A stretch of DNA of 64,000 nucleotides from Hahella sp. (GCA_028280065.1 JANQMN010000069.1:29424-93423), one strand, 5' to 3'; shown: positions 21,227 to 43,509, counted from the first letter of the stretch. The notes: generated from the letters alone by a model not told the origin. Translations and numbers: made by a program.

Positions 21227-21444
21227 TGGAATTAGCGGCGCTGCTATTCTGACAGTTTTCAAGTGGAAGAGATCAATTGCAAATGGGCTTGAGTTTATGA
21301 ACGGTTAGATATGGTGCTAACAGGGCATGGTGTAAATATTGGAAGCTGGCATAGCTATTTTGAAATTCAGTATTGGCCAGATCTTGCAACTGGTAAAGTT
21401 GGCCTGAAGCGCTTCTTGAGAAGAATCTGAGTTAGGTACGGTTA

Positions 21445-21628
21445 AACCCCGAAAGGGGTTGTGTGATATAGCCGGTGGGTTTCAACCACCGGTAGGATCG
21501 ATAAAAAAAATAGTCCCGAAGGGACGACGTCAAAAAGCAGCCTTACGTCGCCCTTTCAGGGCTTGGGTTGGGGTTACCTGTTCCGGTGGTTGAAACCACC
21601 GTCTATATGCCATTTCCCCTCCGGGGAA
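21445..21628. repeat. Palindromic multi-hairpin interspersed element (REP/BIME-like)
   Basis: Six hairpins: AACCCC-GAAA-GGGGTT; CCGGTGG..CCACCGG; GTCCC-GAA-GGGAC; GCCCT-TTC-AGGGC; CGGTGGTT-GA-AACCACCG; TTCCCC-TCC-GGGGAA; the two halves mirror each other. Confidence 0.75.
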
Positions 21629-22021
21629 TAGACAAAACAACGTGCGCACGGCGCACCCTACCGATTTGAAAGAATGGTCTGCTAACTACCGGAAACCTGC
21701 TATACAGCAATGCTATCTTTAACACCCGAAATAGCAACTTGCCAGGTCTTGATTTGAACTATAGTTTTACTTGATTCGGTCAAATCTGAATTTCTACAGA
21801 GAAGGCCATACCATTAAGCCCTCACAGGTTGAATCTAATTAGCGTCCTGACCATACTTCCGTAATCAAACCCGTTTGTATAGCTGCTGTATTGTCTTGTG
21901 GGAACTTCGGACTTGCAGCGGGGCGGCTTCTGTATGTCTTTCGAATAGCGATTTGCTGGTTCACGGAAATAACGGAGCTTAACAAGATCAGCTTTCGCTG
22001 ACTGGCTGAAAATCACACGCC

Positions 22022-25000: not shown

Positions 25001-27178
25001 GTTGAGTTGCAAAATGGTATGGCGGTATTTAAGCAAGCCATGGAAATACGGGTCTCTAAAGGAAACAATCGGCGTTACCTGCAAGCGAATTATCGGCCGC
25101 TTAAAGAACATTATTCACAACGGATCGTACAAGTGCATGTGATGCATGAATATGCCCGGCTTGGGGCTGAACAAATCAAAGCCGCGCTGGACCTTGTGCA
25201 GGACTATTTCGTCAAGTTAAACAAGGCGTTTATCCGCCAGTATTTCCCTCGACAGAAAGGCATGTTGGAACGGGCGACAAGCCAGGAAAGCTGGGACGAT
25301 ATTGTCACCTCGTTGAACAATCCTCACCAACAAGCGGTGGTATGTGCCAAAAGCGATAAAAATCAACTGGTTTTAGCCGGTCCTGGCGCAGGCAAAAGCA
25401 AAGTCATTATCCACCGTATTGCCTACTTGATGCGTGTCGAGCAAGTAGCGGCCGGGAAAATTCTTGCGCTGACCTACAATCACAATGCGGCGGTTAGTCT
25501 TCATAAAAGACTGGTCGGATTACTGGGCAAGGATGCTTACTTTTTAAGAGTGCATACATTTCATGGCTTGGCACTGCGATTATTAGGGCGCAACGTTGAG
25601 CCTGACAAATCCGCAAACCTGGATTTTGACCGCCTAATTGAGGATGCAACACGCTTGCTAAGTGCGGAGCAATTGGAAACCGGCTTGGATGAACATAACC
25701 AAAGGGCCGTCTTGCTCGGCGGTATCGAGCATATTCTGGTAGACGAGTATCAGGATATAAATGCGGAGCAATATGCATTGATTGCCGCACTGGCCGGTAA
25801 AAACACCTCGGACGAAGATGACCGGCTCAGTTTGCTGGCCGTGGGAGACGACGATCAATCGATCTACCAGTTCCGACGGGCAAACGTTAAATACATTCAT
25901 CAGTTTCAACAGGACTATCAGGCCGATGTCAGCTTTCTGACCCAAAATTACCGTTCAACGGCAAATATCATCAGTGCGGCCAACAGCCTGATTGCGCACA
26001 ACCGGGATCGGATGAAGACCCAACATCCAATCGAGATAAACCAGGAGCGCCGCTTAGAGCTGCCAGGAGGAAAGCGGGAAGGGTTCGATCCACATCACAA
26101 AGGCAGGGTCAAGCTGGTTGAGTGTATCAACCTGCACCAACAGGCACAGGAAGTTTGCGAGCAGATCAAGGAGATCCTCCGGCGCGATAAGGAGGCCGGC
26201 TATGCCGACATAGCAATACTCGCGAGAAGTGGGATTGATAAGCCTGCGCTGTTGAGTATTCGGGCGTGCCTCCATAAACAGGACATCCCCTATAGCTTCT
26301 CAAGGACCGACGGCGAGTCTTTTCCGCTCCATGGCGTGCGGGAAATAGCCGCTTTTCGGGACTTTCTGCGGGACCGGTCGCAATCTCTATTAAGCACGGA
26401 GGCACTGCGAGCCTGGCTGCCGGAAGAGCGTAACCACTGGCATCAGTTAATCGCCAGTGTCATTGACGATTGGCAAGATCAATTTGGCAAGGACCCTGTC
26501 GAAGTAATTTTCTTTCAGCGCCAATTAAACGAGTTTTTGCTGGAACAGCGCCGCCAAACCAGAGTCGGCGCCGGGATTGTTTTGAGCACAGTCCACGGCG
26601 TTAAAGGGGAGGAGTTCAAATATGTAATGGTGGCGGATGGCAGCTGGCGCTTTACCTATGCCGATGCCGCCCATTGTGAAGAAGAACGGCGTCTCTACTA
26701 CGTGGCCATGACCAGAGCAATCGAGCAGTTGGTGTTGTTTCGTATCCAAAACGCCGACAATCCTCACCTGGCAGTGCTGGATAACAACGTGATTTCCGGC
26801 GATTTCAGCAAATGCCAGCGCCACTTAGAAGGCATGACCAGATTTCACACAGTCGGACTACCGATGTTATATCTCAGTTTTGCCGGCAGGTACCCCCAAG
26901 GGCACAAGGTGCATCATTGCCTCGATTGGCTCAATACAGGCGATCGGGTAGAAATAGCGCGGCAGTCAAGGGGAAGTATTTCGATTGTTAAGGACGGAGT
27001 TGAAATTGCCAGGCTCTCCAAGAAAGGCATTGATGAACTGGGTAATGAAATAGGCCAGGGCCGACCAGCGACAGTTATTGCGATGGTGAAAAGACTTAAG
27101 GAAGCCGACAGCGATTACAGCGAATCCTTAAAAGTGGAAAACTGGTGGCTGCCGGTGGTCGAATTTACCGTCTGCTAG
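22022..27178 (+). CDS. Fusion protein: N-terminal DEDD-type exonuclease, RecQ-type SF2 helicase, C-terminal UvrD-type SF1 helicase
   Basis: 1718 aa. DEDD: LDLEL, LGHNILEHDLPWL, NPVADARLALRVF. SF2: LPTGGGKSLCYQLPA, YDEAHCLSKWGHDFRP, GRAGRD. SF1: GPGAGKSKVIIHRIAYL, LVDEYQDI, AVGDDDQSIYQFRRA, QNYRST, STVHGVKGEEF, LYYVAMTRA. Confidence 0.93.
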   Translation: MDFDRILSLDLELSRDGNRLHHLGAVLGSRKLDLTSPTATQMAALQRLAEDADVLLGHNILEHDLPWLAEHGYYSGRLAELPVVDTLYLSPLAFPKNPYHRLVKDYKLVKDSFNNPVADARLALRVFEDQRAAFALQFQENSHLIRVYHRLLGKEQDTRALLAALPEHCDSEPGADLPDLVQRSAVAECCQNQLRSLLESAEDTAYSPICLAYALAWLQVAGGNSVLPPWVWRRYPQVKRIIELIREQPCGQSDCTYCRQNFDTKGFLNRYFEMPDFRQLPDGTPLQRQLVDAGVRGRSLLGILPTGGGKSLCYQLPALIRNRRNSSLTIVISPLQALMKDQVDGLKNKAGIEGVAALSGMLTMPERQAVLEEVRMGDIGILYLSPEQLRNRRVKKVLQSRQISGWVYDEAHCLSKWGHDFRPDYLHCANVIAAIAKQQAEQPPPVFCFTATARLDVIKDICSHFKQKLNIELERFEGGVERDNLIYEVVETQAHSKTARILQLLDDFFGNDQPGSCVIYSSSRKGVEKLAAALTSNQPLPVAWFHAGLDPPKKREILEAFIAGQYRIIVATNAFGMGIDKDDVRLVIHCDIPGSLENYLQEAGRAGRDRQLAHCVLLFDQQDVEQEFRKAKQSEVRLKDIAELLKEIRYRAKYADGRVVATAKELLRSEYVETDISLEDNNADTKVKTAIAWLEKEGFLSREDNVTSVFQGKPLFADLKEARRKLNGLQLSRVERQRWEVILEALLSAKIDEGLSADDILDKVAGQLKQAPDKTDYSPENIMKTLSQMAQCGLLSRGFSMTAYLRPKGRNSSRSVAEIVVAIENRLLQWLPEIAPYEGSDTLHQVDIRAINSKLQADFQLPSTTRLVRIVFRNWAEDGKTSGTVGSLQFSSRGKELFTIRLQRPWSEIREIAEQRQTFTVQVLNFLYSRLTPEVANLQKKVLVEFTLEDAVSKLKEDALIRLQLADKHQIQAQEFLLKGIQRVLIFLDSCKAVELQNGMAVFKQAMEIRVSKGNNRRYLQANYRPLKEHYSQRIVQVHVMHEYARLGAEQIKAALDLVQDYFVKLNKAFIRQYFPRQKGMLERATSQESWDDIVTSLNNPHQQAVVCAKSDKNQLVLAGPGAGKSKVIIHRIAYLMRVEQVAAGKILALTYNHNAAVSLHKRLVGLLGKDAYFLRVHTFHGLALRLLGRNVEPDKSANLDFDRLIEDATRLLSAEQLETGLDEHNQRAVLLGGIEHILVDEYQDINAEQYALIAALAGKNTSDEDDRLSLLAVGDDDQSIYQFRRANVKYIHQFQQDYQADVSFLTQNYRSTANIISAANSLIAHNRDRMKTQHPIEINQERRLELPGGKREGFDPHHKGRVKLVECINLHQQAQEVCEQIKEILRRDKEAGYADIAILARSGIDKPALLSIRACLHKQDIPYSFSRTDGESFPLHGVREIAAFRDFLRDRSQSLLSTEALRAWLPEERNHWHQLIASVIDDWQDQFGKDPVEVIFFQRQLNEFLLEQRRQTRVGAGIVLSTVHGVKGEEFKYVMVADGSWRFTYADAAHCEEERRLYYVAMTRAIEQLVLFRIQNADNPHLAVLDNNVISGDFSKCQRHLEGMTRFHTVGLPMLYLSFAGRYPQGHKVHHCLDWLNTGDRVEIARQSRGSISIVKDGVEIARLSKKGIDELGNEIGQGRPATVIAMVKRLKEADSDYSESLKVENWWLPVVEFTVC

Positions 27179-28134
27179 TTTTTCTGTCTGTCCGCGAGCC
27201 CTAGATCTTCTATTTTGGGTGTCAGTTCAACCTGCTTAATACAGAGTCGATTGCGGCTATCGCGCTTGCCGGCATAGAGCAGATCGTCGGCAATCTTCAG
27301 CGATTGCGCCACTTTTTCTCCTGCTTGCGGTACACATACGCAGGCCCCGATCGTGATGGTTACCACCGGCGCTGCCGACGATTGGTTATGCTCGATATTC
27401 AGATCTTCCACGCCTTTTCGACAGGATTCCAGGATATGCCGTGAGCCTTCCAGATCGGTTTCCGGCAAAATGATACAGAATTCCTCGCCGCCGTACCTGC
27501 AGACCAGGTCACGCGGACGTTTCAGCTTCACTTCGAGAATATTTGCAATGCGCCGTAACACCTGATCGCCGGCGGCATGGCCGTAATGATCGTTATACAG
27601 TTTGAAGTGGTCCACATCGACCATGGCAATGGCTAACGGGTGCCCGGTGCGATTTGAATTGGACCATTCGATATTGAGTTTTTGCTCCATCTGGCGCCGG
27701 TTCGGTATGGCGGTGAGGGAGTCCAAATTCGCCAGCTCCTCCAGCATGCGCCGTTGCTTTGCCAGTTCCAGGTGGGTAAATACCCGGGCTTTGACAATCT
27801 CCGCATGAAAGGGTTTGTGAATATAATCGCAAGCGCCCAGTCGCAGGCCTCGAGCTTCATCGTGGTGAGAGTCCAGGGCGGTAATAAACATTACCGGGAT
27901 GTTCTTGGTTTCATCGTCGCGTTTGAGCTGTTCGAGGACCTTAAAGCCGTCCATGTCCGGCATGATGATATCCATCAATATTAGCGTCGGGTTCTGGCGG
28001 CGCGCCAGATCCAGTGATTGCAGGCCATTTTTGGCCAAAACGATCTTGCCTTGCGACTTCAGAAGATCGTAGAGAATTTTTCGATTGGATTTTTCATCAT
28101 CCACAATCAGGATAATGGGTCTTTCAATCTGCAT
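27175..28134 (-). CDS. Response regulator with GGDEF diguanylate cyclase domain
   Basis: REC: ILIVDDEKSNRKIL...LILMDIIMPDMDGF; GGDEF: DLVCRYGGEEFCIILPE. Confidence 0.94.
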   Translation of the reverse strand: MQIERPIILIVDDEKSNRKILYDLLKSQGKIVLAKNGLQSLDLARRQNPTLILMDIIMPDMDGFKVLEQLKRDDETKNIPVMFITALDSHHDEARGLRLGACDYIHKPFHAEIVKARVFTHLELAKQRRMLEELANLDSLTAIPNRRQMEQKLNIEWSNSNRTGHPLAIAMVDVDHFKLYNDHYGHAAGDQVLRRIANILEVKLKRPRDLVCRYGGEEFCIILPETDLEGSRHILESCRKGVEDLNIEHNQSSAAPVVTITIGACVCVPQAGEKVAQSLKIADDLLYAGKRDSRNRLCIKQVELTPKIEDLGLADRQKN

Positions 28135-28172: not shown

Positions 28173-31100
28173 TCAGCGCTGCATTTCTTCTTCAAGCAGC
28201 TTAAGTTTTACCAGGGCCTGATCATATTCGATATCGTCCAGTAATTCCTCAATAGTTTCGGCGGCTTCTTGGTGCTGAGACCCCGAGCAAATTTCATTCA
28301 ACGCCGGCATCAAGTCTTCTGCCTTGGCGTCGGAGTCCTCAACCAAAGGAATCAGGCGTTGCACAATGCCCAGTGCTGCCTGGAAATCGAAATCAGTATT
28401 CGTCATCACTTTTTGCTTGATTTTTAAATCGACTTCCATGCGTTTGATCAGGTTTTCGACCAGTTCTATGGTGATTTCCATTTTATTGGATATATGTTGC
28501 TTTTTGTCGACCGCCAGTTCCAGCTCTTGAGCGGCTTTGGAGATCACTAAAGCGCCAATGTAGGCAGCATTGGAACGCAGCGAATGGGCAAACCGATAAA
28601 GGGTTTCCAAGTCCTGTTCCTGCCAGAGCTTGGTCAGTTTTCCACGAATGTCGCGATAGTCCTTGACGAAGTCCACTGCCAGGTTCAGGTATAAGTCGGT
28701 TTTACCCTGGATCTTTTGAATCGCAACATCGACCATTAGCTGTGGATTAGCGTTTAATGCTTCCAGCAGTTGTGCGTTGCTGTCATTGGTTGCAATCCGG
28801 GATACGGCGGGCCGCTTGCGTTGCATGATCAAATCGGTATCCATCCATCTTGCCATCTTATGATAGAGGTCGTCCGGATCGATGGGTTTTGTGATGTGGT
28901 CGTTCATCCCGGAATTCAGGCTTTTTTCCCGCTCGCCCGGCATGGCGTGTGCGGTCATGGCAATGATTGGCAGCTTTTCCCGGTCCGGTAGCTTACGGAT
29001 TTCTCCCGCCGCCGTCAGGCCATCCATTTCCGGCATCTGAATATCCATCAGCACCAGGTCATATTCGTTGTTGTGAACTTTTTCGACGGCGACCTTGCCG
29101 TTTTCAGCGATATCCAGGGAGATACCGGTCTCGTTCAGAAAACCTATCGCCACTTGCCGGTTGATCGCATTATCCTCCACCAGCAAAACACGGCCACCGG
29201 ACATGTCGAGCAGGGGGGATTTGGCGGTTTCTTCCGGCGGCGGCAGAGGCTGGGAACCGCTGGTTGGAATCAGGCAGTTGGTGATGGTATTGATAAGGCT
29301 GGATTGATGGAAGGGTTTTTCCATGTAACCTTCAATTCCGACGGCGGCGCACAAGGATTGGGCTTCATCCTTATCGTAGGCCGAGGCCATCAGAATCGCC
29401 GGGGTGTTCGCCATGTCCAGGTTTTGCTTGATGATGCGGGATGCTTCGATACCATCCATTTGCGGCATTTTCCAATCCATAATCACCAAATCGAAAGGTT
29501 TTCCCTGGTCATATTGTTCTTTGACCAGGGTAACGGCCTCCTGGCCGTTTTCCGCTTCCATGATATTGGCCTTCAGGTGGCTTAACATGGTGGTCAGCAC
29601 CGCCCTGGTAATTTCGTTGTCGTCCACCACCAGTATGTTCAAATTGGCCAGCGACAGGAGCGATGGCAGTTGGGGCTGTCGCGCGGCGACTTTGGCTTGT
29701 ATGGTGAAGCCGAATTCGGACCCTACATCGGGTTGGCTGGATACCCATATCTGCCCCCCCATCAGTTCCGTCAACTGTTTGCTGATCGCCAGTCCCAAGC
29801 CGGTGCCGCCGTATTTACGCGTGGTGGAATCGTCTGCCTGGGAGAAGGATTGAAACAGCCGATTGCATTGCTCCTCTTTCATGCCTATGCCGGTATCGCG
29901 CACTATGAACTCCAGTGTCATCATGCCTTTGGAACGGGCTTTGGGCTGTACCATGATGGCGATGTGGCCGGTTTCGGTAAATTTGATGGCGTTATTGGCC
30001 AAGTTAACCAGAATCTGCTGTAAGCGCAGAGGATCGCCGACCAGCATTTTCGGAATGTCTTTACTGATATCGACAATGAGTTCCAGCCCTTTGGCGTAGG
30101 CTTTCAGGGCGCAGACATTAATCACCCGGTCCAGCAGTTTTTCAAGATTGAACTGGATCGACTCCAACGTCATCTTACCGGCTTCAATCTTGGAGAAATC
30201 CAGAATGTCATTGATAATACCGAGCAATACATCCGCCGAATCGACAATCTTTTCCAGATAGTCCTGTTGTTCGGCAGTGAGCTTGGTTTTAAGCGTGAGT
30301 TTACTGAGACCGATCACTGCATTCATCGGCGTTCTGATTTCATGGCTCATTTTCGCCAGAAAGTCGGATTTGGCTTCGTTAGCGGCCTTCAATTGCAGGT
30401 TTTTTTCTTCGATTTCGGCAGTACGGGCCTGCACTTCGGATTCCAGCAGCGCATAATGATTAGCGTTAATTAGTGCAATCGCGGCGTGGCTGGAGAGCAG
30501 CTTGAGAATTTCCACACGGCGCCTGTTAAAAGCGCCGGCAATCAGGTCATTTTCCAGGTACAGCACACCGATCAGCTTGGCTTGGTAATGAATGGGTAGG
30601 CCGATGACCGATTTGGTCTGATTGCGGCGTATATAGGGGTCGTTTTCGAACTTAGGATCATTCGATGCTTCGTCCAGCAGTACCTGTTGCTCGGTACGTA
30701 CTGTCACATTGAATACCGAATGGGCGTAATCTTCCTCCGACGGAAGGGTTGTCGGATCAAAATGCTCCAGTTGATTATCGATGACCTTGGCGCCTGCCAG
30801 TGCTTTGATGCGGCTGTTTTTTTGGAAAAACAAAATGCCCTTTTGTGCGCCTGCGTTTTCAATGCTGATTTTAAGCAATGTTTTCAGCAGGTTGTCCAGG
30901 ACGATTTCCTGCGACATGATTTGGGACGCCTTCAAGATCGTCACCATATCCAGGCTCTGGCCGCCGGTGACAGTGGAGGCGTTCCCCTGGCGGGTTGCGG
31001 ACGATGACACGATGTGCTCGGTGGACTCCAGTAGGGGGACGAATTCGGAATAGGCGGACTCCAGATGCACGACCTTGCTGGTTGCCTCCCACTTGTTGTA

Positions 31101-34100
31101 GTAATAGCGCGCCTGACGCAAATGGTAAACCGCCAGTTCCTGCAGGCCGCGTTGGATGTAAAAGCGTGCGGCGTATTCCCAGGCCAACGCGCATTCATGA
31201 ACAAATCCCTGATCCCGGGCATGTTCTATTGCGGCGTGATAATGTTCGTTGGCTTTACCGAAATCGCCTTCCAGGCGTGCTTGCTCCGCTTGGATCAAGT
31301 GACAGCGATGTAAGTGATTCTCCGGCGCATGGCTTGCCCATTTACGCAGTTTGGCCAAATCGGCTTTGACCTTGCGTAAGGTCTTGCGCCGTTCCCATCC
31401 GGTTTGCTGTTCCGCTGCAGTGAGTAGAGCCAGGGCTTCGTAATAATGAAACAGAATCACGGCAAACATGCCCAGGCCGCCCTTAATATATTGCCGGCCC
31501 TTGTTGGCGCAATCCAGGGCTGTGTCCTTGTCGTTGAAATACACGCTCAGCATCAACTTGGCGCAATAAAGCAAAAACAGTGCGCTAACGTCGGTATTGG
31601 CGGTGTGTTCCGGCAGCTTTTTCTGCTCATCGTAGGCAACTCCCTGGAGACTTACGGGATTTTCCGTCTCTTGTTGAAAGTTCTCGGCGGTCTGCCACCA
31701 GATGGCATGCCAGTTTATCGAAGGTATGACCTTGAAGCTTTCCAGGTCCTTTTCCGCAGTTGCCATGGTCTGGGTCAGGTCACGAAGTGGGGCACCGCAG
31801 TGGAACTCGGCCTGGAGTTTGTTGTTGAGCGAATAAGAGGCATATTCGATATCGCCCAGTTCCAGGCAAAGTTTGTAGGCATTGTACAGCTCGGGCACCG
31901 ATTCACGTATGTGGTGCTTGTAGTTCTTTATAATCCAGCCCCAATAGAAGAGCGACTGATGAATCGGCAGACCCTGTTTGCGGGCCAGATCGATACCGCA
32001 TTTTCCGTACTGGTATCCCAGGTCGATATTACCCAGCACCGCACACTCGGTGATACCCCACCAGGAAAGACCGAATCCGGCTATTTTAGAATACCCGTAC
32101 TTGATGGTATTGCGGGTTAATTGAAATATCACCAGAAACACCAGATTGGGTGATGCCCAATAAGCCGGCGGAATAGTCAGGCCCAGGATATTCATCGATA
32201 AGCCTACTTTCGGGTCCTTCATGGCGGGCAACTCCATAAGCTTAGCGATCGGTTTCCGCTTGACCGCCATTTTGGTGCGCAGCAGGTTCAACAACACATC
32301 CATTTCACCGGGTTTGTCGGGAAACTGACAGTCAAGTTCCTTCAGGGCTTTCAGCGAGATCGCCACTGCTTCCGCCAGGCGGTTTTGCGCGGTATACGCC
32401 TGGAGCCGAATGGCATAGGCCTGGGTAATCGACGGCAGGTCGGTCAGGTTTGTTTGTAACTCGTCCAGCCAGCCTTCCATCAGGTCGTATTTCTTGCTCA
32501 GAAAGGCGACTTCGGCGGCGAAAAGCAGCAGTTCGGTAACAATTTCCTTACGGCTTTGCCAGTAGTCGCCGGGCAGCGCGTCGATGGCGAGCTGAAAGTA
32601 GTGTAAAGCCGGCGCATAGGCAGTGGCTTCCTTAGCGCGCCGTCCGGCTAACAGGTTGTAGTGCAGCAGATTGTCCTTGGAAGCCTGTTCCTGAAATACG
32701 TCTTTGGCGAGATTAAGATGTTTCACCAGTTCGAAAACCCGTTGTTCCGCCTCTTCCTTGGATAGCGCTTCCAGCAGCGTGGTGGCGATCTTTTCGTGAA
32801 TGTGGGTCGTCCGGTCGGTTTCGATTAGGCCGTACGCTGCCTGCTGAATGCGGTCGTGGATGAACTGGTAGGAGACCTGATTGAACTGGGAATCCAGGCG
32901 GGCGATACGGTAGTTGGAATCCAAAGGCTTGAGAATGCCTTCCATGATGGCTGGCTCCAGCCAACCGGCAACTTCGGTCGTGGCGGATTGCAGAATCACC
33001 GAAAGGGTTGTTAGGTCAAACCGGTTGCCGATACAGGCGGCATAGGTGAGACAGGTTAAGGTGTCGCTTTCCAGCTTACGCAGTTTAAAAGCCATCAGAT
33101 CGACGACGTTGTCGGTAATGTTGAGCTGTTTAATCTGTTCAAGGTCGGTCTGCCAGCAGAGTTCCTGGGCGTCGAAACTGATCAGGTTCTCCTTGTAGAG
33201 ATTGTTCAGGAACTGAATCAGGAAGAAAGCATTGCCCTGGGTTTTCTCGTTAATTAGATTGACCAAGGGATCGATATCCCGGCTATGTCCCAGGGCATCG
33301 CCCACCAACTCGTAGACGGCGTTTTCCTTGAGATTACCTACTTCCACCCAGTTTAGCGGGACATGGGCTGTTTGCATGTCATCGAGTAACAGTTGAAACG
33401 GGTGGCTGGACGTTACTTCGTTGTTCCGGTAGGCGGCAATGATCAATAGGTACCGGGATTCCCGGTCACTCAGCAAATAGCGCAAGAGATTCATCGATGC
33501 CGAGTCCGCCCATTGCCAGTCGTCGATAAATACCACAAGCGGATGATTTTCCCGGCAGATGGTCTTGAAGAAGATATTCAATGCATAATTAAAGCGGTTC
33601 AGCGCCTGTTCCCCGTTTAGTTCGGGGGGCTCGGGTTGCTTGCCCAGCAGGGTTTCCAGTTTGGGGACCAGCTTAACCACTACGCCGGCAACATTACCGA
33701 GACTTTCCAGCAAGGACTGCTTCCAGGTTTGCAGGGAATCTTCGTCTTCCTTGAGTATTAAGTTGATCCATTCGGAAATTACCGAAATCCAGGCGAAGTA
33801 GGGAATATCGCGCTCGTATTGATCAAACTTGCCGGAAATAAAAAGACCGTGTTTCACGGTAAGCGGCTTATGAACCTCGTGCACCAGGGAACTTTTTCCG
33901 GTGCCTGAATAACCCGACACCAGGGTTAGTTCCTTGCCGCCGCTACTGGTGCGTTCGAAGGCACTCAGTATTTCCTGAATTTCTTCGTCTCTGCCGTAGA
34001 GCTTTTGGGGAATCTGAAAATGCGCCGAGTAATCCGCCAATCCCAGCTCGAATGGCTCGATGCGGCCATGTTCCTGCAACTGGCGCAAACAACGTTGCAG

Positions 34101-34898
34101 ATCGTGTGCCAAGCCTTTGGCGCTTTGATAACGGTCGTCAGGCATTTTTTCCATCAGCCGCATGATGATACTGGATAAGCATTCCGGCAGATTGGGATTA
34201 AGCTGGTGGGGAGAAGGGGGCACGAGCGCAATATGGGCGTGTACCAGTTCAATACCATGTAAACCTTCGAACGGGAGTGAGCCGGTAAACAACTGATAAA
34301 GGGTTGCTCCGCAGGAATACAGGTCGGAGCGGTAATCCAGCGCACGGTTAAGGCGACCGGTTTGTTCGGGCGCGATATAGGCGAGGGTGCCCTGTAAATC
34401 ATTTTGGTGCTGAAATTCTTGATGTTCGAGCTTCAGGCGGGTGGCGATGCCGAAATCGATGAAATAAAGCTTTTCGTGCTCCTCCTGCCAGATCAGGTTG
34501 GTGGGATTGATATCCTTATGAATCACTTGCTGGTCATGTAGCTGGGAAAGTATTTCCGCCAATTGCAGGGCAATTTCCAAACGCCTGGTAAGGTCCGGAT
34601 GCTCGGTCTTGAGCCACTTGGCAAGATCAACTCCGCCAACGTCCTTTTCCACCATTACCAGGGTGTTTTGATAGGCTTCCAGACGCTCAACCTGAATAAC
34701 CTGTTCCAAATGATCCAAAGAACGGGTGTTTTCATACTCGGCCCGAAAGTTGGATAGCTCCGTCAGGGTCGGGAAGTCCTTGTTCAACACCTTGAGAATG
34801 AAGGTTTGGCCGTTTTCCAAATGGCGGGTGCGATAGACGCGGGCATTTTCGCTTTCGAAAAGGCGCTCGGTAATCTCATACTTCAATATGCTTTGCAT
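28173..34898 (-). CDS. Giant hybrid signalling protein: Ser/Thr kinase - AAA ATPase - GAF - histidine kinase - REC - REC - HPt
   Basis: 2241 aa. VIHKDINPTNLIW and FIDFGIA (kinase); GYSGTGKSSLV (P-loop); FLAKMSHEIRTPMNAVIGLS, GTGLGLAISKQL; two REC (VIMDWKMPQMDG, LVLMDIQMPEMDG); HPt FAHSLRSNAAYIGA. Confidence 0.95.
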   Translation of the reverse strand: MQSILKYEITERLFESENARVYRTRHLENGQTFILKVLNKDFPTLTELSNFRAEYENTRSLDHLEQVIQVERLEAYQNTLVMVEKDVGGVDLAKWLKTEHPDLTRRLEIALQLAEILSQLHDQQVIHKDINPTNLIWQEEHEKLYFIDFGIATRLKLEHQEFQHQNDLQGTLAYIAPEQTGRLNRALDYRSDLYSCGATLYQLFTGSLPFEGLHGIELVHAHIALVPPSPHQLNPNLPECLSSIIMRLMEKMPDDRYQSAKGLAHDLQRCLRQLQEHGRIEPFELGLADYSAHFQIPQKLYGRDEEIQEILSAFERTSSGGKELTLVSGYSGTGKSSLVHEVHKPLTVKHGLFISGKFDQYERDIPYFAWISVISEWINLILKEDEDSLQTWKQSLLESLGNVAGVVVKLVPKLETLLGKQPEPPELNGEQALNRFNYALNIFFKTICRENHPLVVFIDDWQWADSASMNLLRYLLSDRESRYLLIIAAYRNNEVTSSHPFQLLLDDMQTAHVPLNWVEVGNLKENAVYELVGDALGHSRDIDPLVNLINEKTQGNAFFLIQFLNNLYKENLISFDAQELCWQTDLEQIKQLNITDNVVDLMAFKLRKLESDTLTCLTYAACIGNRFDLTTLSVILQSATTEVAGWLEPAIMEGILKPLDSNYRIARLDSQFNQVSYQFIHDRIQQAAYGLIETDRTTHIHEKIATTLLEALSKEEAEQRVFELVKHLNLAKDVFQEQASKDNLLHYNLLAGRRAKEATAYAPALHYFQLAIDALPGDYWQSRKEIVTELLLFAAEVAFLSKKYDLMEGWLDELQTNLTDLPSITQAYAIRLQAYTAQNRLAEAVAISLKALKELDCQFPDKPGEMDVLLNLLRTKMAVKRKPIAKLMELPAMKDPKVGLSMNILGLTIPPAYWASPNLVFLVIFQLTRNTIKYGYSKIAGFGLSWWGITECAVLGNIDLGYQYGKCGIDLARKQGLPIHQSLFYWGWIIKNYKHHIRESVPELYNAYKLCLELGDIEYASYSLNNKLQAEFHCGAPLRDLTQTMATAEKDLESFKVIPSINWHAIWWQTAENFQQETENPVSLQGVAYDEQKKLPEHTANTDVSALFLLYCAKLMLSVYFNDKDTALDCANKGRQYIKGGLGMFAVILFHYYEALALLTAAEQQTGWERRKTLRKVKADLAKLRKWASHAPENHLHRCHLIQAEQARLEGDFGKANEHYHAAIEHARDQGFVHECALAWEYAARFYIQRGLQELAVYHLRQARYYYNKWEATSKVVHLESAYSEFVPLLESTEHIVSSSATRQGNASTVTGGQSLDMVTILKASQIMSQEIVLDNLLKTLLKISIENAGAQKGILFFQKNSRIKALAGAKVIDNQLEHFDPTTLPSEEDYAHSVFNVTVRTEQQVLLDEASNDPKFENDPYIRRNQTKSVIGLPIHYQAKLIGVLYLENDLIAGAFNRRRVEILKLLSSHAAIALINANHYALLESEVQARTAEIEEKNLQLKAANEAKSDFLAKMSHEIRTPMNAVIGLSKLTLKTKLTAEQQDYLEKIVDSADVLLGIINDILDFSKIEAGKMTLESIQFNLEKLLDRVINVCALKAYAKGLELIVDISKDIPKMLVGDPLRLQQILVNLANNAIKFTETGHIAIMVQPKARSKGMMTLEFIVRDTGIGMKEEQCNRLFQSFSQADDSTTRKYGGTGLGLAISKQLTELMGGQIWVSSQPDVGSEFGFTIQAKVAARQPQLPSLLSLANLNILVVDDNEITRAVLTTMLSHLKANIMEAENGQEAVTLVKEQYDQGKPFDLVIMDWKMPQMDGIEASRIIKQNLDMANTPAILMASAYDKDEAQSLCAAVGIEGYMEKPFHQSSLINTITNCLIPTSGSQPLPPPEETAKSPLLDMSGGRVLLVEDNAINRQVAIGFLNETGISLDIAENGKVAVEKVHNNEYDLVLMDIQMPEMDGLTAAGEIRKLPDREKLPIIAMTAHAMPGEREKSLNSGMNDHITKPIDPDDLYHKMARWMDTDLIMQRKRPAVSRIATNDSNAQLLEALNANPQLMVDVAIQKIQGKTDLYLNLAVDFVKDYRDIRGKLTKLWQEQDLETLYRFAHSLRSNAAYIGALVISKAAQELELAVDKKQHISNKMEITIELVENLIKRMEVDLKIKQKVMTNTDFDFQAALGIVQRLIPLVEDSDAKAEDLMPALNEICSGSQHQEAAETIEELLDDIEYDQALVKLKLLEEEMQR

Positions 34899-35005: not shown

Positions 35006-36343
35006 TTATGCCTGGAGAAACAATCGCTCCACTTCGGCAACCAGGCGTTCGTTTTCACTATCCTCGCGTAGCGACGGGAACATGGAAAAACAGAGTTGAT
35101 CGTCGAACGACAGATTGATAACGACAACTGCACGGTTGATCAGCGCCGCTCCGCCGGCGTCTAGCGGGTCTACATTCACGGCGCTTAAATGCGCCAGTGA
35201 TTCGCAACCCGCCAGGAACGATTTACCGGCTAGGAAGCGATAGTTATTCCAATTGGTGATGATATAGGAAAGTTCATCGTCTGCCGTACCGACGGCATTT
35301 TCCGCCGCGCCTTGTTCCACCAGTTCAAAGCAAGTCAAATTAATCTGCCGGGACTTGAACTCCACTATGCGGTCGTGAACGCCTTTGGAAATATGCTCAA
35401 CCGGTATCTCACCTGGCGTGGATACCGGTACGAAAGCGATATAATTGCCGATATATCGCCTGCGAAAATCCGCGGGCAGCAAATCAGACACGGTTTTTCC
35501 GCTGATGATATGCGGCTCGTTCTTGCCCAGGTGCTCGGTATTGATGTTGTAAAGCGCTTTGTGGAGAACACCGGTGATCACCGCGTTCTTGGTTACCTCG
35601 GGAAAGGCGGTACGGCAGTGCTCGATCATTCGCTTGGCATCGACCACCACCGTAACCGGGCGGCGTTTACGTTCGGCGAATTTTGGCAGCAACTCAGGCA
35701 GCGTAGCCAGGCGCACGCCATGGCCTCCGACATCGGCAATGGGATAGCTGGCCAGATGTTGGACATTCGCTTCCAGGTCATAATCCGGCGTCCGGAGGCG
35801 TTGGATCATTTCTTCCGCATGCAGGGTGTGGAGATTGCTGGCCTGGCTTACCAACTCCCGCATCGTTTCGTAATTGTTGACCTCCATGGCGTTGTAATAG
35901 TCGACGATCAGGTGCAGGATAGTTTCCGCGCTACGGGCGTCGATGTACTCATGCGAGCACATTTGCGCCAGTATAAACCGGTTTTCCGTTTCCGGATGAG
36001 TGCTCTTGATCACCACCAGATTCATCGGAAAATTTTTGCTAGAGGATCGAAGTTCGAAACCTCTAGCGGAGAGTTCTATAAATTCCTCTTCGAGGTCGTC
36101 TGTTTCCAACACATGAAACCGATCTTCGTATGCGGCAAACGGACGCCAGTGAAAATCGTTTTGTGCCGTGAAGTCAATTTGGTGGCCGAATTTGCCTATA
36201 TTATCGACAATGGCATGAAATGCTTCCCGCAGATTTTCAGTGTTCAAATCTCCCTGGAAAACATAGCCGGCAGTAAAGAGAATTTCCGCACGGCTCATTA
36301 ATCCTTCTAGATTTAATTTGCCTACAGAATGTGATGTTGTCAT
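35006..36343 (-). CDS. Condensation / PapA5-like acyltransferase fold protein
   Basis: 445 aa; MCSHEYIDARSAETIL resembles HHxxxDG with a degenerate first His; C-terminal VVINLSFDDQLCFSMFP. Confidence 0.6.
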   Translation of the reverse strand: MTTSHSVGKLNLEGLMSRAEILFTAGYVFQGDLNTENLREAFHAIVDNIGKFGHQIDFTAQNDFHWRPFAAYEDRFHVLETDDLEEEFIELSARGFELRSSSKNFPMNLVVIKSTHPETENRFILAQMCSHEYIDARSAETILHLIVDYYNAMEVNNYETMRELVSQASNLHTLHAEEMIQRLRTPDYDLEANVQHLASYPIADVGGHGVRLATLPELLPKFAERKRRPVTVVVDAKRMIEHCRTAFPEVTKNAVITGVLHKALYNINTEHLGKNEPHIISGKTVSDLLPADFRRRYIGNYIAFVPVSTPGEIPVEHISKGVHDRIVEFKSRQINLTCFELVEQGAAENAVGTADDELSYIITNWNNYRFLAGKSFLAGCESLAHLSAVNVDPLDAGGAALINRAVVVINLSFDDQLCFSMFPSLREDSENERLVAEVERLFLQA

Positions 36344-36445
36344 GGAGAGTCAACCTTAAACACTTCACCAAACGGAATTGGGGTGGAGTTACCTTGTACT
36401 GTTCTGGTAAGCATAGCAAAAACCGCCGCGAACATTGGGTTAAAA

Positions 36446-38062
36446 TCAGGGAATTTCACAGGAATAAACCCCGGCGGGACAGGCGTTATTTTGGTAAAAC
36501 GCACAAAATTTATCTGCTTTGCTACGGCTGGGGACCGTCTTGCCCGCGACCTTCTCTTCACATCTACCGGTTGAAGTGAAGTTGTAATCCATCTTGGCAT
36601 TAATGCAAAGTGTTCGCAGATTGGCTTCCGAAGGATGATTTACCCAGGTGTCGGCGCAGCTTTTTTGTGCCGCGTCGGTATCCATTCCAGGGGAATCGCT
36701 TAGCAATTGAGCAATACATATGGCCTGCATATCGATTTGCTCGTCCTTCACTAAATCAAACGACTTGTAGCCGCTGCTTTGGCAAGAGGGGCTTGGGTCG
36801 CCGGGACAGCACTGATAGGTAGTGACATCCGGGTGGTTGGTGGCGACCCAGGACGTGGTTTTCCGGGCTCCCGGCAGGGTCGTAGTGCCGGCATAGGGAA
36901 GCTCATATCGGACCGGCTGACCGGTGATGGCGGCCCATGCCTTGCGTGCGTCGCTGCCCAGCACCATGACCGGCAAGGTATGTCCGGTTGAGCGGTTACC
37001 TGGCGGATCAGCGAGCAGGTTGATCATGGGAGCCACGTAATTTCCGCCGCTCGCGGAGTTGTTGAAGTAAGTCATAATGTCCGGCAGGAAAGGGGATTGG
37101 CCGGAACCGGGAGCGGCAATAGGCCGAGAATCAACGATGGTATTGTAGAGGTGAGGATTGGCGATACCCGCCGACTTGAGAATCCGGTTCCAGCGGTCCA
37201 TGGTGAAGTTATCCAGATAATCGCCGCTGGTCAACGCATCATAGGGGGGATAGTTTAGGTAATTCACGATTTTCTGATTCAACATGGCCAATCCCAAGGG
37301 TAAATAAAACGCCCAGGGCGCATTACCGATATAAGGTTCCCAGCAGCCGGCGTTGTTTTGGCAGGCTTTTACACCCTGTAAGCCCTGTTGACCGTGCGCG
37401 GTATCCATAAAACGCTGATGCATGACGGCGAAGTTCTCCAACAACGCGGCATCGCTGCCTTCCAGCTCCACCACGGCCGGTTCCCCCGGGGTTGCCGTAA
37501 CGCTGAGAATGTGAATTTCATTGGTTAGTCCGGCGTTATCGATGGACTGTTGGGTAAAGTGCTCAATGGTTTTGGCCAAGCTACTGTAGTTAAACCATGG
37601 TGGCGAGGGCTTTGGCTGTGAGTCGGCAAAAAACTGCTCGCCTTTGGAGCAGACAAGGGTATTATCTTGAGCGCCCAATCCACAGACCAGGTATTCGTGT
37701 TGATATTGCCCGCCGTCATAGCAGTGGAAGGCATTGTTGCTTGCGAAGCAGCTGAAGGTTTCCTGCTTTTGCTCGCCATACTCGCTATACGTCAGGGTGC
37801 ACTTTCCCGGTGCGGTAATCCGGCAGGTGAAGCTGCCGTGCCGGTCGGCGCAACCTTGGTCCGCAGCGGTTGCGGAGCGGGTGGTTAACCCGCCGTATTG
37901 ACTATAAAAAGCCGGCAGCCAGCTATCATGCGGATAGAGGCATACGGCTTTTTCGGACAACTCATATTCAATGACACTGGTATTCGACTGTTGAGGCAAT
38001 GCACTACATGCCGTAAGCAGCCATCCTGTCAGCATCAGCCATATTAAACAAGCTTGTTTCAT
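36446..38062 (-). CDS. Cys-rich lipoprotein, paralogue of the 38102-39262 product
   Basis: Signal plus lipobox WLLTAC|S; WAFYLPLGLAMLNQKIVNYLNYPP...TIVDSRPIAAP...WVATNHP. Confidence 0.75.
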   Translation of the reverse strand: MKQACLIWLMLTGWLLTACSALPQQSNTSVIEYELSEKAVCLYPHDSWLPAFYSQYGGLTTRSATAADQGCADRHGSFTCRITAPGKCTLTYSEYGEQKQETFSCFASNNAFHCYDGGQYQHEYLVCGLGAQDNTLVCSKGEQFFADSQPKPSPPWFNYSSLAKTIEHFTQQSIDNAGLTNEIHILSVTATPGEPAVVELEGSDAALLENFAVMHQRFMDTAHGQQGLQGVKACQNNAGCWEPYIGNAPWAFYLPLGLAMLNQKIVNYLNYPPYDALTSGDYLDNFTMDRWNRILKSAGIANPHLYNTIVDSRPIAAPGSGQSPFLPDIMTYFNNSASGGNYVAPMINLLADPPGNRSTGHTLPVMVLGSDARKAWAAITGQPVRYELPYAGTTTLPGARKTTSWVATNHPDVTTYQCCPGDPSPSCQSSGYKSFDLVKDEQIDMQAICIAQLLSDSPGMDTDAAQKSCADTWVNHPSEANLRTLCINAKMDYNFTSTGRCEEKVAGKTVPSRSKADKFCAFYQNNACPAGVYSCEIP

Positions 38063-38101
38063 AGTCGTATCCTGACAGTCAAGGTGATCTTCAGCAATAG
38101 C

Positions 38102-39262
38102 TCAAGCCGGCTTTGGAATTTTGAAGCTGAATTCCAAAGCTTTCGGATCCGGATAGAACAGCGACCCCTGATGCTCCACCAATTGCCTGACCTGATCTGT
38201 GCGGTTCGCATCGCGCCAGTAGTCGATACCGGCATCCAGCACTACCTGTGGATCCTGGCTCGGATCGTTAGACATCTGCACCTGCCAGTGCGCGGCGGCA
38301 AGATCGTCCTTCATCAATGCGATGACAGAATCCAAATGCCCAGGAGCGATTTCGCCGCATCCCACGTAGTATTTGTCCGGCTGCTTATCGTCGATTTGCG
38401 CCTGGGCATAGAACCGGTAGGGGTGGTTGGTGGACAACACCCGCGTCTTTTTGCCCGGCACTATTTCGGCAGTGGCGACTTTGTTGATGCCTAACGTTTG
38501 ACCTGTGCCCTTAAGAAATATTTCCTCGAACTCTTCACGGGGATGAGCCCCGTAGATAACGATGGGAATAGTATAACCTTCCTGATTCTCTGCCGAATTC
38601 AGGAGCAGCTTAACCAAGTCGGTTTGGTAGGTGGTGAAATACTCAATGGGAATCAGTCCGTATTTATATTTGCTCTTGTCTACCTTCTTGGAACCCTGGT
38701 CGTCCGGCGCCGCAATAGGGGTCGCGTCCACCACGGTTTCGTACAGCCAGCTGGCCTGTTCGCTGCTTACGCCATTGACTTGCAGCAGCTCTTCCCAGCG
38801 CACCGGAACCGGATCGTTCAGGTAGTCGCGCATGGGGTCCAATAGGCGAATTGGCGGATAGTGAAAAAACTGCAGGGATTTCTGCCGCACCATCGCCAGC
38901 CCCAGCGGTAGGAAGAAGCGCCATTGTCCGGTATTTTCCGGGTCCCATTTGCCGATCTTATGCAGCTCCGGAATCACCTGATCTAAAGCCTGCTGGCCAA
39001 TGGCCAGCAGTTCCTGAAGGCGTTCGGCATAACGCGAGACCACCGGCTGTTGATTCTCTTCAGCGACCAGTTCCAGGTAAACCTGTTGATCCTCAAGGAT
39101 CGCGGTCGCCTTGATTTGCTCGGCAACACCGTCGCGTTGCAGGGTTTGATCAAACCAATGCTGAATCGTCGCGCTGAGGGACTCGTCGGCATTGGGGAGG
39201 TTTGGATAGGAATAGAGTGCTGTCAGGTCCGCTTCGGTCCCGAGAGGTATCCGAGTCTTCAT
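38102..39262 (-). CDS. Uncharacterised protein, signal-less paralogue of the 36446-38062 lipoprotein
   Basis: 386 aa; WRFFLPLGLAMVRQKSLQFFHYPP...TVVDATPIAAP...VLSTNHP matches the neighbouring lipoprotein co-linearly. Confidence 0.75.
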   Translation of the reverse strand: MKTRIPLGTEADLTALYSYPNLPNADESLSATIQHWFDQTLQRDGVAEQIKATAILEDQQVYLELVAEENQQPVVSRYAERLQELLAIGQQALDQVIPELHKIGKWDPENTGQWRFFLPLGLAMVRQKSLQFFHYPPIRLLDPMRDYLNDPVPVRWEELLQVNGVSSEQASWLYETVVDATPIAAPDDQGSKKVDKSKYKYGLIPIEYFTTYQTDLVKLLLNSAENQEGYTIPIVIYGAHPREEFEEIFLKGTGQTLGINKVATAEIVPGKKTRVLSTNHPYRFYAQAQIDDKQPDKYYVGCGEIAPGHLDSVIALMKDDLAAAHWQVQMSNDPSQDPQVVLDAGIDYWRDANRTDQVRQLVEHQGSLFYPDPKALEFSFKIPKPA

Positions 39263-39274
39263 GTTTTTGGCTCC

Positions 39275-40576
39275 TTATGTGATGTCGCCGCCGATACGTT
39301 CGATTTCATTCAGGTCCTGCCAGAGCGTTGGTTCATGAAAGCAGATAGCACCGCCGCCCCGTTTTTCCTGGGAGGTCATGCGGTTTAAGTCCGCCACGCA
39401 GACCCAGGCGGCGTCGGTGCCGCTTTCGGTATCCACTTCACGGACGCCACGTTCCTCGGGTTTTTCCGATAACGCCCACTTGGAATGATCATGGGTGTAA
39501 GCCCAGGTGTAACCTTGCAACGACTGGCCTTGGCTGTCATTTAACATGGCCAGGTCGAGATTTGTGATTTCATCCTCGTCATGTTGACCGTCACCTTCGA
39601 CAAACTCATGATGGTAAAGCGTATCCTTGTGTTTATTCACACTGTCATCCTGGCCATATTCCGCATTGCCCGAACTATCAACATTTTCAGGGAGTGTGGC
39701 GGAGGCAGTCAGACGCCGCCAGGTTTCTACCCGAAGGTCGGTATCTAGTTTGGGTCCCACCAAATTTATCCAGAAGTCATCATGCCAAGCGCCACTTTTG
39801 GCAATAAGTCGAAATGACTTGCCGGCTTGGGAGCTAAACTCGATGTCGGCAGGGTCGCGTTTGCCGTGCTTGGCGATGTAACTGGAGGAATACGAAGGGG
39901 GTTCGATACCCTGAGCGAGCCGCCATAGGTCCGGCCACTTTGAATTTTGGGTGACTGTTGAGGGAAGCCGGCAACCAAATACCTGGGGTTCGTGTTGGGT
40001 CGACAGGACCTCGGCGATACGATTGGCGGTTGCTACATCCTTGAGGCTGATGCAGATGAATGTTTGGGCGTAGGTGTAAGCGTACTCGGGGTAGAAGTAG
40101 TCTTCGTCGTTTTCCAGGTGCAGGCCGGGAATTCGCGGAGTGGAATGGGATAACCAGAAGGCAGTATCCGTAGCCAGATCGAATGCCAGCGTGCCCTTAC
40201 AATGGCCGTTATGGCTGTTATCTATCGGATGTCCCCGGTCCTTTTCCCGCGCGTTCTCGCTATAATATTTGGGTGGTCTGTTCGGAGGCCAGTCCTCGCG
40301 TTGTAATGAATAGGGGTATTCATCGTTATAGTGAATCCAGCCGATAGATTCGGAGTTGTCTGTCAACAACTGCACCATCGTATGGTAAAGCGCACCCTTG
40401 GCAGCGGTTCCTAAGGTATTGCTGGATAGAGCAAGTGTCCTCTGCTTGTCGCCGTCATAGTAAAGATATTCATTACCCTTTGTCTTCTTGCCAGTAGGGC
40501 CGGAGTCTTTGGGAAGTTTATACATAAACCACCAGTCGGTGGCATCACCAGTTTGATCGTTTTTTGCAGATAACAT
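39275..40576 (-). CDS. Deoxyribonuclease II family protein
   Basis: TDWWFMYKLP, IHYNDEYP, GHCKGTLAFDLATDTAFWLSHSTPRIPG, YAQTFICISL, DHSKWAL, CVADLNRMTSQEKRGGGAICF: co-linear with animal DNase II, both HxK motifs present. RBS AAGGA before ATG; no evident signal peptide. Confidence 0.9.
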   Translation of the reverse strand: MLSAKNDQTGDATDWWFMYKLPKDSGPTGKKTKGNEYLYYDGDKQRTLALSSNTLGTAAKGALYHTMVQLLTDNSESIGWIHYNDEYPYSLQREDWPPNRPPKYYSENAREKDRGHPIDNSHNGHCKGTLAFDLATDTAFWLSHSTPRIPGLHLENDEDYFYPEYAYTYAQTFICISLKDVATANRIAEVLSTQHEPQVFGCRLPSTVTQNSKWPDLWRLAQGIEPPSYSSSYIAKHGKRDPADIEFSSQAGKSFRLIAKSGAWHDDFWINLVGPKLDTDLRVETWRRLTASATLPENVDSSGNAEYGQDDSVNKHKDTLYHHEFVEGDGQHDEDEITNLDLAMLNDSQGQSLQGYTWAYTHDHSKWALSEKPEERGVREVDTESGTDAAWVCVADLNRMTSQEKRGGGAICFHEPTLWQDLNEIERIGGDIT

Positions 40577-41638: not shown

Positions 41639-42193
41639 TTACTCCAATTCAATCCAGCATGCGAACAATGGGTAGCCATTGATGATTTTTGGCGGGCCGG
41701 CACGATGTGCTTTGAAGCCGGCTTTTCTGAGAAGACGTTCAACTCCCAGGGGAGAAACGCTGATCATTCTCTTTGCGCCATGTTCCTGGGCACAGCGGAT
41801 AGCGGCTTTGAGTAGATCGACGCTATGTTCGGCAGAAAACTGTGCGTTGGTTGGGCTGGTTTCAGCTTGCAAATCGAGAGACGTGAATCTTGATAATTCC
41901 CAAATCTCGGCGGATTTAGGCGGTTTCAGTCCATTCAATAATTCTGGAAACACTTCTTCCAGTAAATACGGCAGGGTTGTTGGCAGAAGTCTGGCACAAC
42001 CGGTAATCTGACTGTCTTCGTTCCGCGCCACCACATAGATGGTTTCGGAATGATCGAACTGGTCTGACTCGTAGCCGTTCTCGGTATCGAGATCCCAGCC
42101 CAGTCGATCAACAAATACTTCGTATCGGTAGGTAAAAAGTTCGCATCTTGCCTGATTTGAGAGTCCTTGCGATGTATGTGACTTATAGTTCAC
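41639..42193 (-). CDS. Acyl-homoserine-lactone synthase (LuxI family)
   Basis: YRYEVFVDRLGWDL, YVVARNEDSQITGCARLLPTTLPYLLEEVFPELL, AEIWELSRF. Confidence 0.95.
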   Translation of the reverse strand: MNYKSHTSQGLSNQARCELFTYRYEVFVDRLGWDLDTENGYESDQFDHSETIYVVARNEDSQITGCARLLPTTLPYLLEEVFPELLNGLKPPKSAEIWELSRFTSLDLQAETSPTNAQFSAEHSVDLLKAAIRCAQEHGAKRMISVSPLGVERLLRKAGFKAHRAGPPKIINGYPLFACWIELE

Positions 42194-42255
42194 GCGGCAC
42201 CCCCATAAAAATGTTTCGTCAGGGGCTATTAACTAAAATTTAACGAACCCGTTGT

Positions 42256-42275
42256 AGCTGTTAAGTTTGACAGGT
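42256..42275 (-). promoter_or_regulatory. lux box upstream of the luxI-like gene
   Basis: Minus strand ACCTGTCAAACTTAACAGCT, i.e. CTGT-N8-ACAG dyad, about 60 bp upstream of the luxI start. Confidence 0.75.
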
Positions 42276-42277
42276 GG

Positions 42278-42709
42278 CTATGCGTACTTGTTTGTGATAT
42301 GCGCCGAAATTTGGTCGCCCCAGCATAACTGGCCGACTAAAACAGACAGATACTTCATGCAGGTATCGGGTTCCAAATCTCGTTCGTACCGGTCCAAAAG
42401 AACGACATTGCTAAATGGGTGACCGACCATTTTGTATCGGGGCGGGATATCGTATCCGTCGAATTCCCAGTCCCATCCGATGGAAATTGCCGGTTCCGTT
42501 TCACTGATCCATTCCGTATAGCCGTTCATTTTGCAGACGCGGTTACTGGTCGTATCCGCTTCCGGCTCGTCGGCATAGACTCCCGAGTCCAGGTGTTTTA
42601 GTTTGACAGCATCCAGCTCAAGACTGGATAAACGAACATATCCGTCATCGGACAGGCGAAGCTTCGGTTGGTGCATTGTAAGTTCCTGGTTCACTTGGTT
42701 TTCCTCCAT
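42278..42709 (-). CDS. RsaM/TofM-like (DUF4902-type) quorum-sensing modulator
   Basis: 143 aa, located between luxI-like and luxR-like genes; size, position and sequence character (YVRLSSLELDAVKLKHLDSG; EWISETEPAISIGWDWEFD) fit RsaM-type proteins. No alignment run. Confidence 0.65.
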   Translation of the reverse strand: MEENQVNQELTMHQPKLRLSDDGYVRLSSLELDAVKLKHLDSGVYADEPEADTTSNRVCKMNGYTEWISETEPAISIGWDWEFDGYDIPPRYKMVGHPFSNVVLLDRYERDLEPDTCMKYLSVLVGQLCWGDQISAHITNKYA

Positions 42710-42798
42710 TGGCTATAATGGTGTATTGTAAACACTTGTCGGCATGTTGGTGATTGATAAATCTGACAGGTATATGAAAGGCCAAGAGGCTGGTCAAA

Positions 42799-43509
42799 AT
42801 GGAACAGTGGATTGAAGAACAACTTCATCTATTGCTGAATGTGTCGTCGAAAGATGAGCTCTTCTCCGGTTTAACCAAGGCAGCGCGACTCCTGGAGTTC
42901 GACTACTTTGCCTACGGTCTGCGCATTAATATGCCGGTGACCTCGCCGAAGATTGAAATGCTGAATAACTACCCCGAACAGTGGCAGCAGCAGTATTCCG
43001 CGCAAAATTATGTGGCAATCGACCCCACCGTTAAACACGGCTCTCAAAGCTTGAGGCCGGTTGTTTGGTCGGAAGAACTCTTCTCAAATACGCCGAACCT
43101 GTGGGAGGAAGCTTCCTCCTTCGGGTTGCGCTTCGGTTGGGCGCAGTCTACCCATAGCTTACCGGGAATATCGGGAATGATGACCCTGGCGCGATCTGCA
43201 AGCGACCTGAATGAATTGGAACTCACAGCCAAATCGGCCTTGATGGTATGGTTCACTCAAATTGCGCATATTGGCTTGCAGGACATTTTACTACCTGAAA
43301 TGCTGCCGGAGCTAAACGTTAATCTCACACTGCGGGAAATGGAAATTTTACGATGGACAGCAGACGGTAAAACCTCGAATGAAGTTTCCGTGATTTTGGG
43401 GATTGCCGAGCGAACGGTGAATTTCCACCTCAATAATGCGATGTCCAAACTCAACGTCATCAATAAAACCGCGGCTGTCGTAAAGGCTGTGCAGTTGGGG
43501 ATAATCTAG
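42799..43509 (+). CDS. LuxR-family quorum-sensing regulator (autoinducer-binding + HTH)
   Basis: Autoinducer-binding domain (FDYFAYGLRI, YVAIDPTVKHG, GWAQSTHSLPG) and HTH LTLREMEILRWTADGKTSNEVSVILGIAERTVNFHLNNAMSKLNV. Confidence 0.95.
   Translation: MEQWIEEQLHLLLNVSSKDELFSGLTKAARLLEFDYFAYGLRINMPVTSPKIEMLNNYPEQWQQQYSAQNYVAIDPTVKHGSQSLRPVVWSEELFSNTPNLWEEASSFGLRFGWAQSTHSLPGISGMMTLARSASDLNELELTAKSALMVWFTQIAHIGLQDILLPEMLPELNVNLTLREMEILRWTADGKTSNEVSVILGIAERTVNFHLNNAMSKLNVINKTAAVVKAVQLGII

Follow-up and report, generated by a model that had tools for sequence, protein, structure and literature searches.

A bacterial DNase II linked to a divergent protein of predicted uracil-DNA glycosylase-like fold: a candidate DNA-processing module

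Introduction

DNase II is a DNA-digesting enzyme of animals; its cleavage is acid and metal-independent and leaves 3′-phosphates. The uracil-DNA glycosylase (UDG) superfamily includes the defence glycosylases Brig1 and Brig3 (PMC11078745, PMC13160076), the former of which has Glu instead of Asn at the base-recognition residue (PMC11078745). Here, we describe a locus in which relatives of both families may meet. It lies in a 64,000-nt stretch of DNA from Hahella sp. (GCA_028280065.1 JANQMN010000069.1:29424-93423), referred to as the window, and contains a DNase II gene followed by genes for two paralogous proteins of a family that we call PIAAP, a working name taken from a conserved motif. DNase II and one clade of PIAAP are linked in other bacteria as well, and the PIAAP model resembles UDGs. 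Full-text literature searches returned no description of a DNase II with a UDG-like partner, although these covered open-licence papers only and so are weak evidence of novelty.

Results

Four open reading frames (ORFs) follow one another on the minus strand of the window, with intergenic gaps of 12, 39 and 102 bp, and another 107 bp separates the last of them from a sensor kinase gene. The four genes, their gaps, order and internal paralogy are as described in an earlier reading made from the DNA alone (the sequence-only reading). The first gene (39275..40576) encodes a 433-aa protein, named there as a DNase II homologue. This identification is borne out by a whole-domain match to PF03265 (E 3.7e-68; 230.6 bits versus a cut-off of 23) and by retention of both catalytic HxK motifs (GHCKG and DHSKW); the B. 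thailandensis DNase II structure 5i3e also matches (2.4e-43). The second gene (38102..39262) encodes a 386-aa protein of PIAAP clade A and the third (36446..38062) a 538-aa clade B lipoprotein. The N-terminal extension of the lipoprotein is rich in Cys, and it is the C-terminal domain that is paralogous to the 386-aa protein. The two proteins are true paralogues (BLASTP 8e-28; 27% over 356 columns). As had also been claimed, a signal and lipobox are present in one paralogue only: the 538-aa protein carries LLTAC-S, and the 386-aa protein starts directly at its domain (signals here and below were judged by eye).

A point overlooked in the sequence-only reading is that the DNase II of the window is leaderless. 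It lacks a eukaryotic-type secretory signal: translation begins ∼13 codons ahead of the first motif, and an in-frame TAA lies nine codons upstream of this start. Scanning 85,462 species genomes yielded 37 DNase II loci, which span Pseudomonadota, Bacteroidota, Planctomycetota, Acidobacteriota, Myxococcota, Verrucomicrobiota and Thermodesulfobacteriota. Nearly all of these genes start ∼13 codons ahead of a D-W-W-F motif, leaving no room for an ordinary signal peptide, and no signal peptide was seen among the ∼35 bacterial genes collected. Complete members retain both HxK motifs, and about a dozen (L031–L068) have Lys/Ala/Pro-rich, histone-H1-like C-terminal tails, which fit DNA binding. PF03265 is rare (2/274 class genomes and 1/299 phylum genomes, the window's own genome counted). 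No DNase II relatives were found in viral contigs; there is one plasmid-borne case, from Burkholderia.

The sequence-only reading proposed that the four genes form a candidate system, and that the neighbourhoods of bacterial DNase II genes should show whether its members co-occur elsewhere. DNase II and the paralogue do. A PIAAP gene lies <10 kb from DNase II in 7/37 loci besides the window (L032, L033, L034, L055, L045, L064 and L058). In L032, L033 and L034, a clade A protein (PIAAP-A) is encoded directly downstream of DNase II on the same strand; in L055, genes for PIAAP, a phosphoesterase and DNase II form one operon. L058 contains a fusion, a 942-aa ORF made up of PIAAP (residues ∼1–400), DNase II (429–786, E 1.5e-66) and a Lys/Ala/Pro-rich tail. 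The DNase II-adjacent or fused copies of these five loci all fall in clade A with the 386-aa protein. Mapped on the DNase II tree, linkage to PIAAP falls into three clades and requires four changes or more. PIAAP is present in 11 of 36 DNase II genomes versus 15 of 399 phylum-sample genomes, an enrichment whose size is approximate because the background is one phylum and is not taxon-matched; in the order, profile searches found the family in 11 of 296 genomes. Thus the link between DNase II and the paralogue is kept, to the point of fusion, whereas the acyltransferase-like gene of the proposed system is not.

No credible named family for the paralogues was found in Pfam, NCBIfam, PHROGs or PADLOC, and, as judged by these comparisons, PIAAP is an undescribed family in the libraries searched. 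The sequence-only reading recommended hidden Markov model and AlphaFold searches of the paralogues; profile searches gave no Pfam match, and an AlphaFold model gave a predicted UDG-like fold, which that reading did not foresee. The AlphaFold model of the 386-aa protein, based on a 12-sequence alignment, has a predicted local distance difference test score (pLDDT) of 87.5 and a predicted template-modelling (TM) score of 0.89. Its high-probability Foldseek matches in the PDB come from the UDG superfamily only, namely BdiUNG (5gn2; probability 1.00) and human TDG (0.77–0.93; target TM 0.46–0.51), with E. coli MUG matching at lower probability (0.47). Among viral proteins, the high-probability matches include a phage polymerase. 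Matches to PpnN were rejected (root-mean-square deviation 15–21 Å, probability ≤0.44).

Profile comparisons gave a similar picture. In hhalign, two PIAAP alignments scored 30.6 and 28.6 against a combined profile of 21 UDG sequences. Controls with unrelated or reversed profiles reached at most 22.4, and 120 column shuffles stayed within 17.9. Single-family UDG alignments scored weakly (13–21), and the combined profile was the only one clear of the controls. The register places H-Y-P-P on UDG motif 1 (GEAPG), then an R-W helix and the β3 Gly, and N-H-P on motif 2 (YHPA); the D/N-PIAAP strand falls in order between motif 1 and NHP. In the 386-aa protein, the corresponding motifs are FHYPP (133–137), D179, PIAAP (182–186), YG (237–238) and NHP (279–281). 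His280, the NHP counterpart of the His in motif 2 (HPS/HPA), is invariant in 37/37 members, and Pro136/137, Arg155 and Asp179 are nearly so. By our own reading of the alignment, Asp179 would correspond to the base-recognising Asn of UDGs. We consider remote homology of PIAAP to the UDG superfamily likely, and glycosylase activity putative. Given the UDG-like fold, DNA or a nucleotide is the likely ligand.

Clades A and B, typified by the 386-aa protein and the 538-aa lipoprotein of the window, each have 100/100 support; in the window lipoprotein the motif-1 His is replaced by Asn. The sequence-only reading had drawn attention to the pairing of a cytosolic with an exported paralogue, and this pairing recurs. 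A leaderless A protein and an exported B protein (PIAAP-B, with signal peptide or lipobox) occur together in five other proteobacterial DNase II genomes (G921, G922, G924, G926 and G935), where, unlike in the window's genome, A and B are on different contigs. G929 has a B lipoprotein only, and the B copy is leaderless in L045, L058, L064 and L086. In L076–L078, the clade C protein forms one chain with a propeller-like region and a PF04185 phosphoesterase. Clade D proteins have signal peptides and are encoded beside a Tat-signal phosphoesterase in several Pseudomonas-like genomes. DNase II was found in 0/18 of the clade C/D genomes, and PIAAP relatives were found in no viral contigs, phages or plasmids. 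A third paralogue (44%), elsewhere in the Hahella genome (G000:C120, L009 8643–9821), is a solo clade A copy in which Asn replaces Asp179; it is sister to the copy that adjoins DNase II in L034. A ∼186-aa protein encoded near this third copy (L009 3354–3914) resembles one in the window (14564–15127) that matches PDC-S03.

The fourth gene of the run (35006..36343) encodes a 445-aa protein, which was labelled condensation- or acyltransferase-like on the basis of an HxxxD-like motif, SHEYIDA. The motif is there, although its first His and Gly differ from HHxxxDG, and no Pfam match was obtained at E≤0.5. Homologues were absent from all DNase II and PIAAP loci and from 147 order genomes, which argues against this gene as a component of the system; the 445-aa protein may be a passenger. 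A single-sequence AlphaFold2 model (pLDDT 33) was unusable for fold reading.

Downstream on the same strand is a gene missed by the sequence-only reading (28173..34898), encoding a 2241-aa sensor kinase (STK-AAA_16-GAF-HisKA-REC-REC-Hpt). We list it as a probable part and regulator because kinases with ∼30% identity to it over ∼1500 aa are encoded in seven PIAAP/DNase II loci. The next gene on that strand (27175..28134) encodes a response regulator with a GGDEF domain, whose membership is uncertain. A related cassette recurs in L045, L064, L076–L078, L085 and L086, comprising a giant STK-AAA-GAF kinase, whose output module is a histidine kinase or a cyclase, together with an AIG2/GGACT-like protein and an unnamed protein of 238 aa. 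This cassette spans phyla and occurs also with PIAAP plus propeller-phosphoesterase.

Other genes are found near DNase II. A leaderless PF04185 phosphoesterase is the neighbour in 10/37 loci. In Flavobacteriaceae and a Saprospiraceae metagenome-assembled genome (L038, L039, L042, L043, L047, L048 and L049), this phosphoesterase follows DNase II, which is itself preceded by genes for a conserved lipoprotein-like protein of 476 aa and for a ∼1530-aa protein. Among the loci with the kinase cassette, those of Bacteroidota also have GshA/GshB-like genes, which flank DNase II. In L031, L061 and L062, DNase II is followed by genes for a ∼970-aa protein and small paralogous proteins; in L031, the ∼970-aa protein contains a PNP_UDP_1 nucleoside-phosphorylase domain (E 6.9e-8), for which the match in L062 is marginal. 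Tyrosinases are encoded near DNase II in L031 and L067.

Upstream of the cluster (41639–43509), the window encodes a LuxI-type autoinducer synthase, a DUF4902 protein and a LuxR-type regulator, so quorum control of the cluster is possible. On the other side (20528–27178), it encodes an RlaP-type RNA-repair nucleotidyltransferase as well as a protein of 1718 aa that combines helicase modules of the DEAD-box and UvrD types. The giant helicase (22022–27178) was considered as a sign of a defence island and rejected, since its PADLOC helicase matches are generic only.

Discussion

We propose, tentatively, that DNase II and PIAAP-A are parts of a DNA-processing module in which the two cooperate in DNA destruction, with PIAAP-B outside, an explanation that we rate as close to probable but somewhat short of it. 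The leaderless DNase II would work with the leaderless PIAAP-A in the same compartment. PIAAP-A would most likely bind DNA, where it would recognise a base, flip it or remove it, and would thereby direct or complete DNA destruction by DNase II. The exported or lipidated PIAAP-B would do a related job outside the cytoplasm, and the downstream sensor kinase would control the module. Its purpose may be destruction of foreign or self DNA, as a first guess, or nucleic-acid catabolism, as a second; phage defence may be one possible purpose. The fusion, the gene order and the clade-specific linkage argue for joint action of PIAAP-A and DNase II, with both DNA as the ligand and co-operation over inhibition presumed. 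A fuller version, possible but more doubtful, is a two-compartment system in which a cytosolic, divergent UDG-superfamily protein would guide DNase II and a lipidated or exported paralogue would act outside, all within a wider UDG-fold/phosphoesterase family wired to giant Ser/Thr sensor kinases.

Several observations weigh against this proposal. No PIAAP gene was found in 25/36 DNase II genomes, so DNase II does not need PIAAP. The Foldseek E value is only ∼0.01 and the query-normalised TM ∼0.3, with no match at E<0.001, and 0/28 PIAAP members matched the Pfam UDG family PF03167 at E≤10. At motif 1, PIAAP has L/F-H-[FY]-P-P rather than G-x-[DNAE]-P; the Pro is aligned, and a His-aromatic pair stands where UDGs have the water-activating Asp/Asn/Glu. 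Given this replacement, canonical glycosylase activity may be absent from PIAAP. Moreover, the partners of clades C and D are phosphoesterases (0/18 with DNase II), which makes a DNA ligand for the whole family putative.

The phosphoesterases figure prominently in the rival that survives best, nucleic-acid catabolism, which we regard as rather unlikely. PIAAP proteins would here be N-glycosidase- or nucleotide-handling enzymes in series with phosphoesterases: DNase II would produce 3′-phosphate oligonucleotides, the PF04185 phosphatase would strip the phosphates, and the UDG-fold enzyme would act on bases or nucleotides; the cytosolic enzymes and the exported ones would form matched sets. The PIAAP-PF04185 fusion in L076–L078 is consistent with such a pathway, as are the adjacency of the two in Pseudomonas-like loci and L085 and the presence of PF04185 beside DNase II in 10/37 loci. 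The compartments also agree, a Tat-signal phosphoesterase accompanying a Sec-signal PIAAP in the Pseudomonas-like genomes and L085 and both being leaderless elsewhere, and the gene beside DNase II in L031 has a nucleoside-phosphorylase domain (E 6.9e-8). Yet uptake or salvage genes were not recognised in the clusters, a cytosolic DNase II would be hazardous for a scavenger, and the sensor-kinase cassette is left unexplained.

A toxin model, which follows the idea in the sequence-only reading of an effector with compartment-specific partners, would have DNase II as a released or injected effector, PIAAP-A as its cytosolic immunity protein or chaperone and PIAAP-B as a periplasmic or surface guard. 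A leaderless nuclease adjoining a leaderless partner, together with a further, exported copy in these genomes, would suit this arrangement. But the fusion of partner and nuclease in one chain (L058) and the 25/36 DNase II genomes without a family member disfavour a simple immunity protein. Strongly conserved active-site-like residues suggest ligand binding, not variable inhibition, and a secretion apparatus was not recognised, though no specific search was made. We judge the toxin model distinctly unlikely.

Anti-phage defence seems to us highly doubtful. The UDG-fold protein would spot modified phage bases as Brig1 and Brig3 do, DNase II would destroy the DNA, and the STK-AAA sensor would act as trigger. 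Those two defence glycosylases (PMC11078745, PMC13160076) provide a precedent from the UDG superfamily, the distribution over phyla is patchy, and the kinase domain of the sensor kinase matches PADLOC PD-T4-6 models, although kinase matches are generic. However, the four cluster proteins have no PADLOC match at E≤1, no defence island was recognised, and the exported copies do not fit this model easily. That unrelated genes are neighbours by chance, a reading that draws on the other neighbours found at most DNase II genes, is already largely refuted by the fusion and the clade-specific linkage. The enrichment over several phyla also weighs against it, and its probability is negligible.

On the proposal of a DNA-processing module, bacterial DNase II, for which our searches returned no known role, would gain a conserved partner as well as a function open to testing. 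The UDG superfamily would gain a widespread unnamed branch, including exported members at odds with ordinary base-excision repair. The fused form is a single protein suited to examining the DNase II-PIAAP partnership.

Compared with known systems, the window nuclease resembles the DNase II family, including 5i3e/5unb, in its whole-domain match and both HxK motifs; the bacterial enzymes seen here differ from the known family in lacking a signal peptide and in having a partner protein, a fusion and Lys-rich tails. PF04185 phosphoesterases (AcpA/phospholipase C type) recur beside, or fused to, PIAAP proteins of clades C and D, and they also lie next to DNase II, whereas the window cluster, unlike those clades and several DNase II loci, is without one. 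For PIAAP, the nearest relatives are in the UDG superfamily (by fold BdiUNG 5gn2, TDG and MUG; by profile mainly family 4). PIAAP is like UDGs in predicted fold, motif order, the invariant motif-2 His and an Asp/Asn at the base-recognition strand. It is unlike them in its His-aromatic motif-1 catalytic site, its N- and C-terminal additions, its lack of a Pfam match, its exported or lipidated members and its fusions to phosphoesterase or DNase II. Brig1 and Brig3 differ from PIAAP as single-gene systems, with neither a DNase II partner nor an exported paralogue. Yet they and PIAAP are alike as divergent UDG-fold proteins, PIAAP by prediction, and in Brig1, too, the base-recognition residue is substituted.

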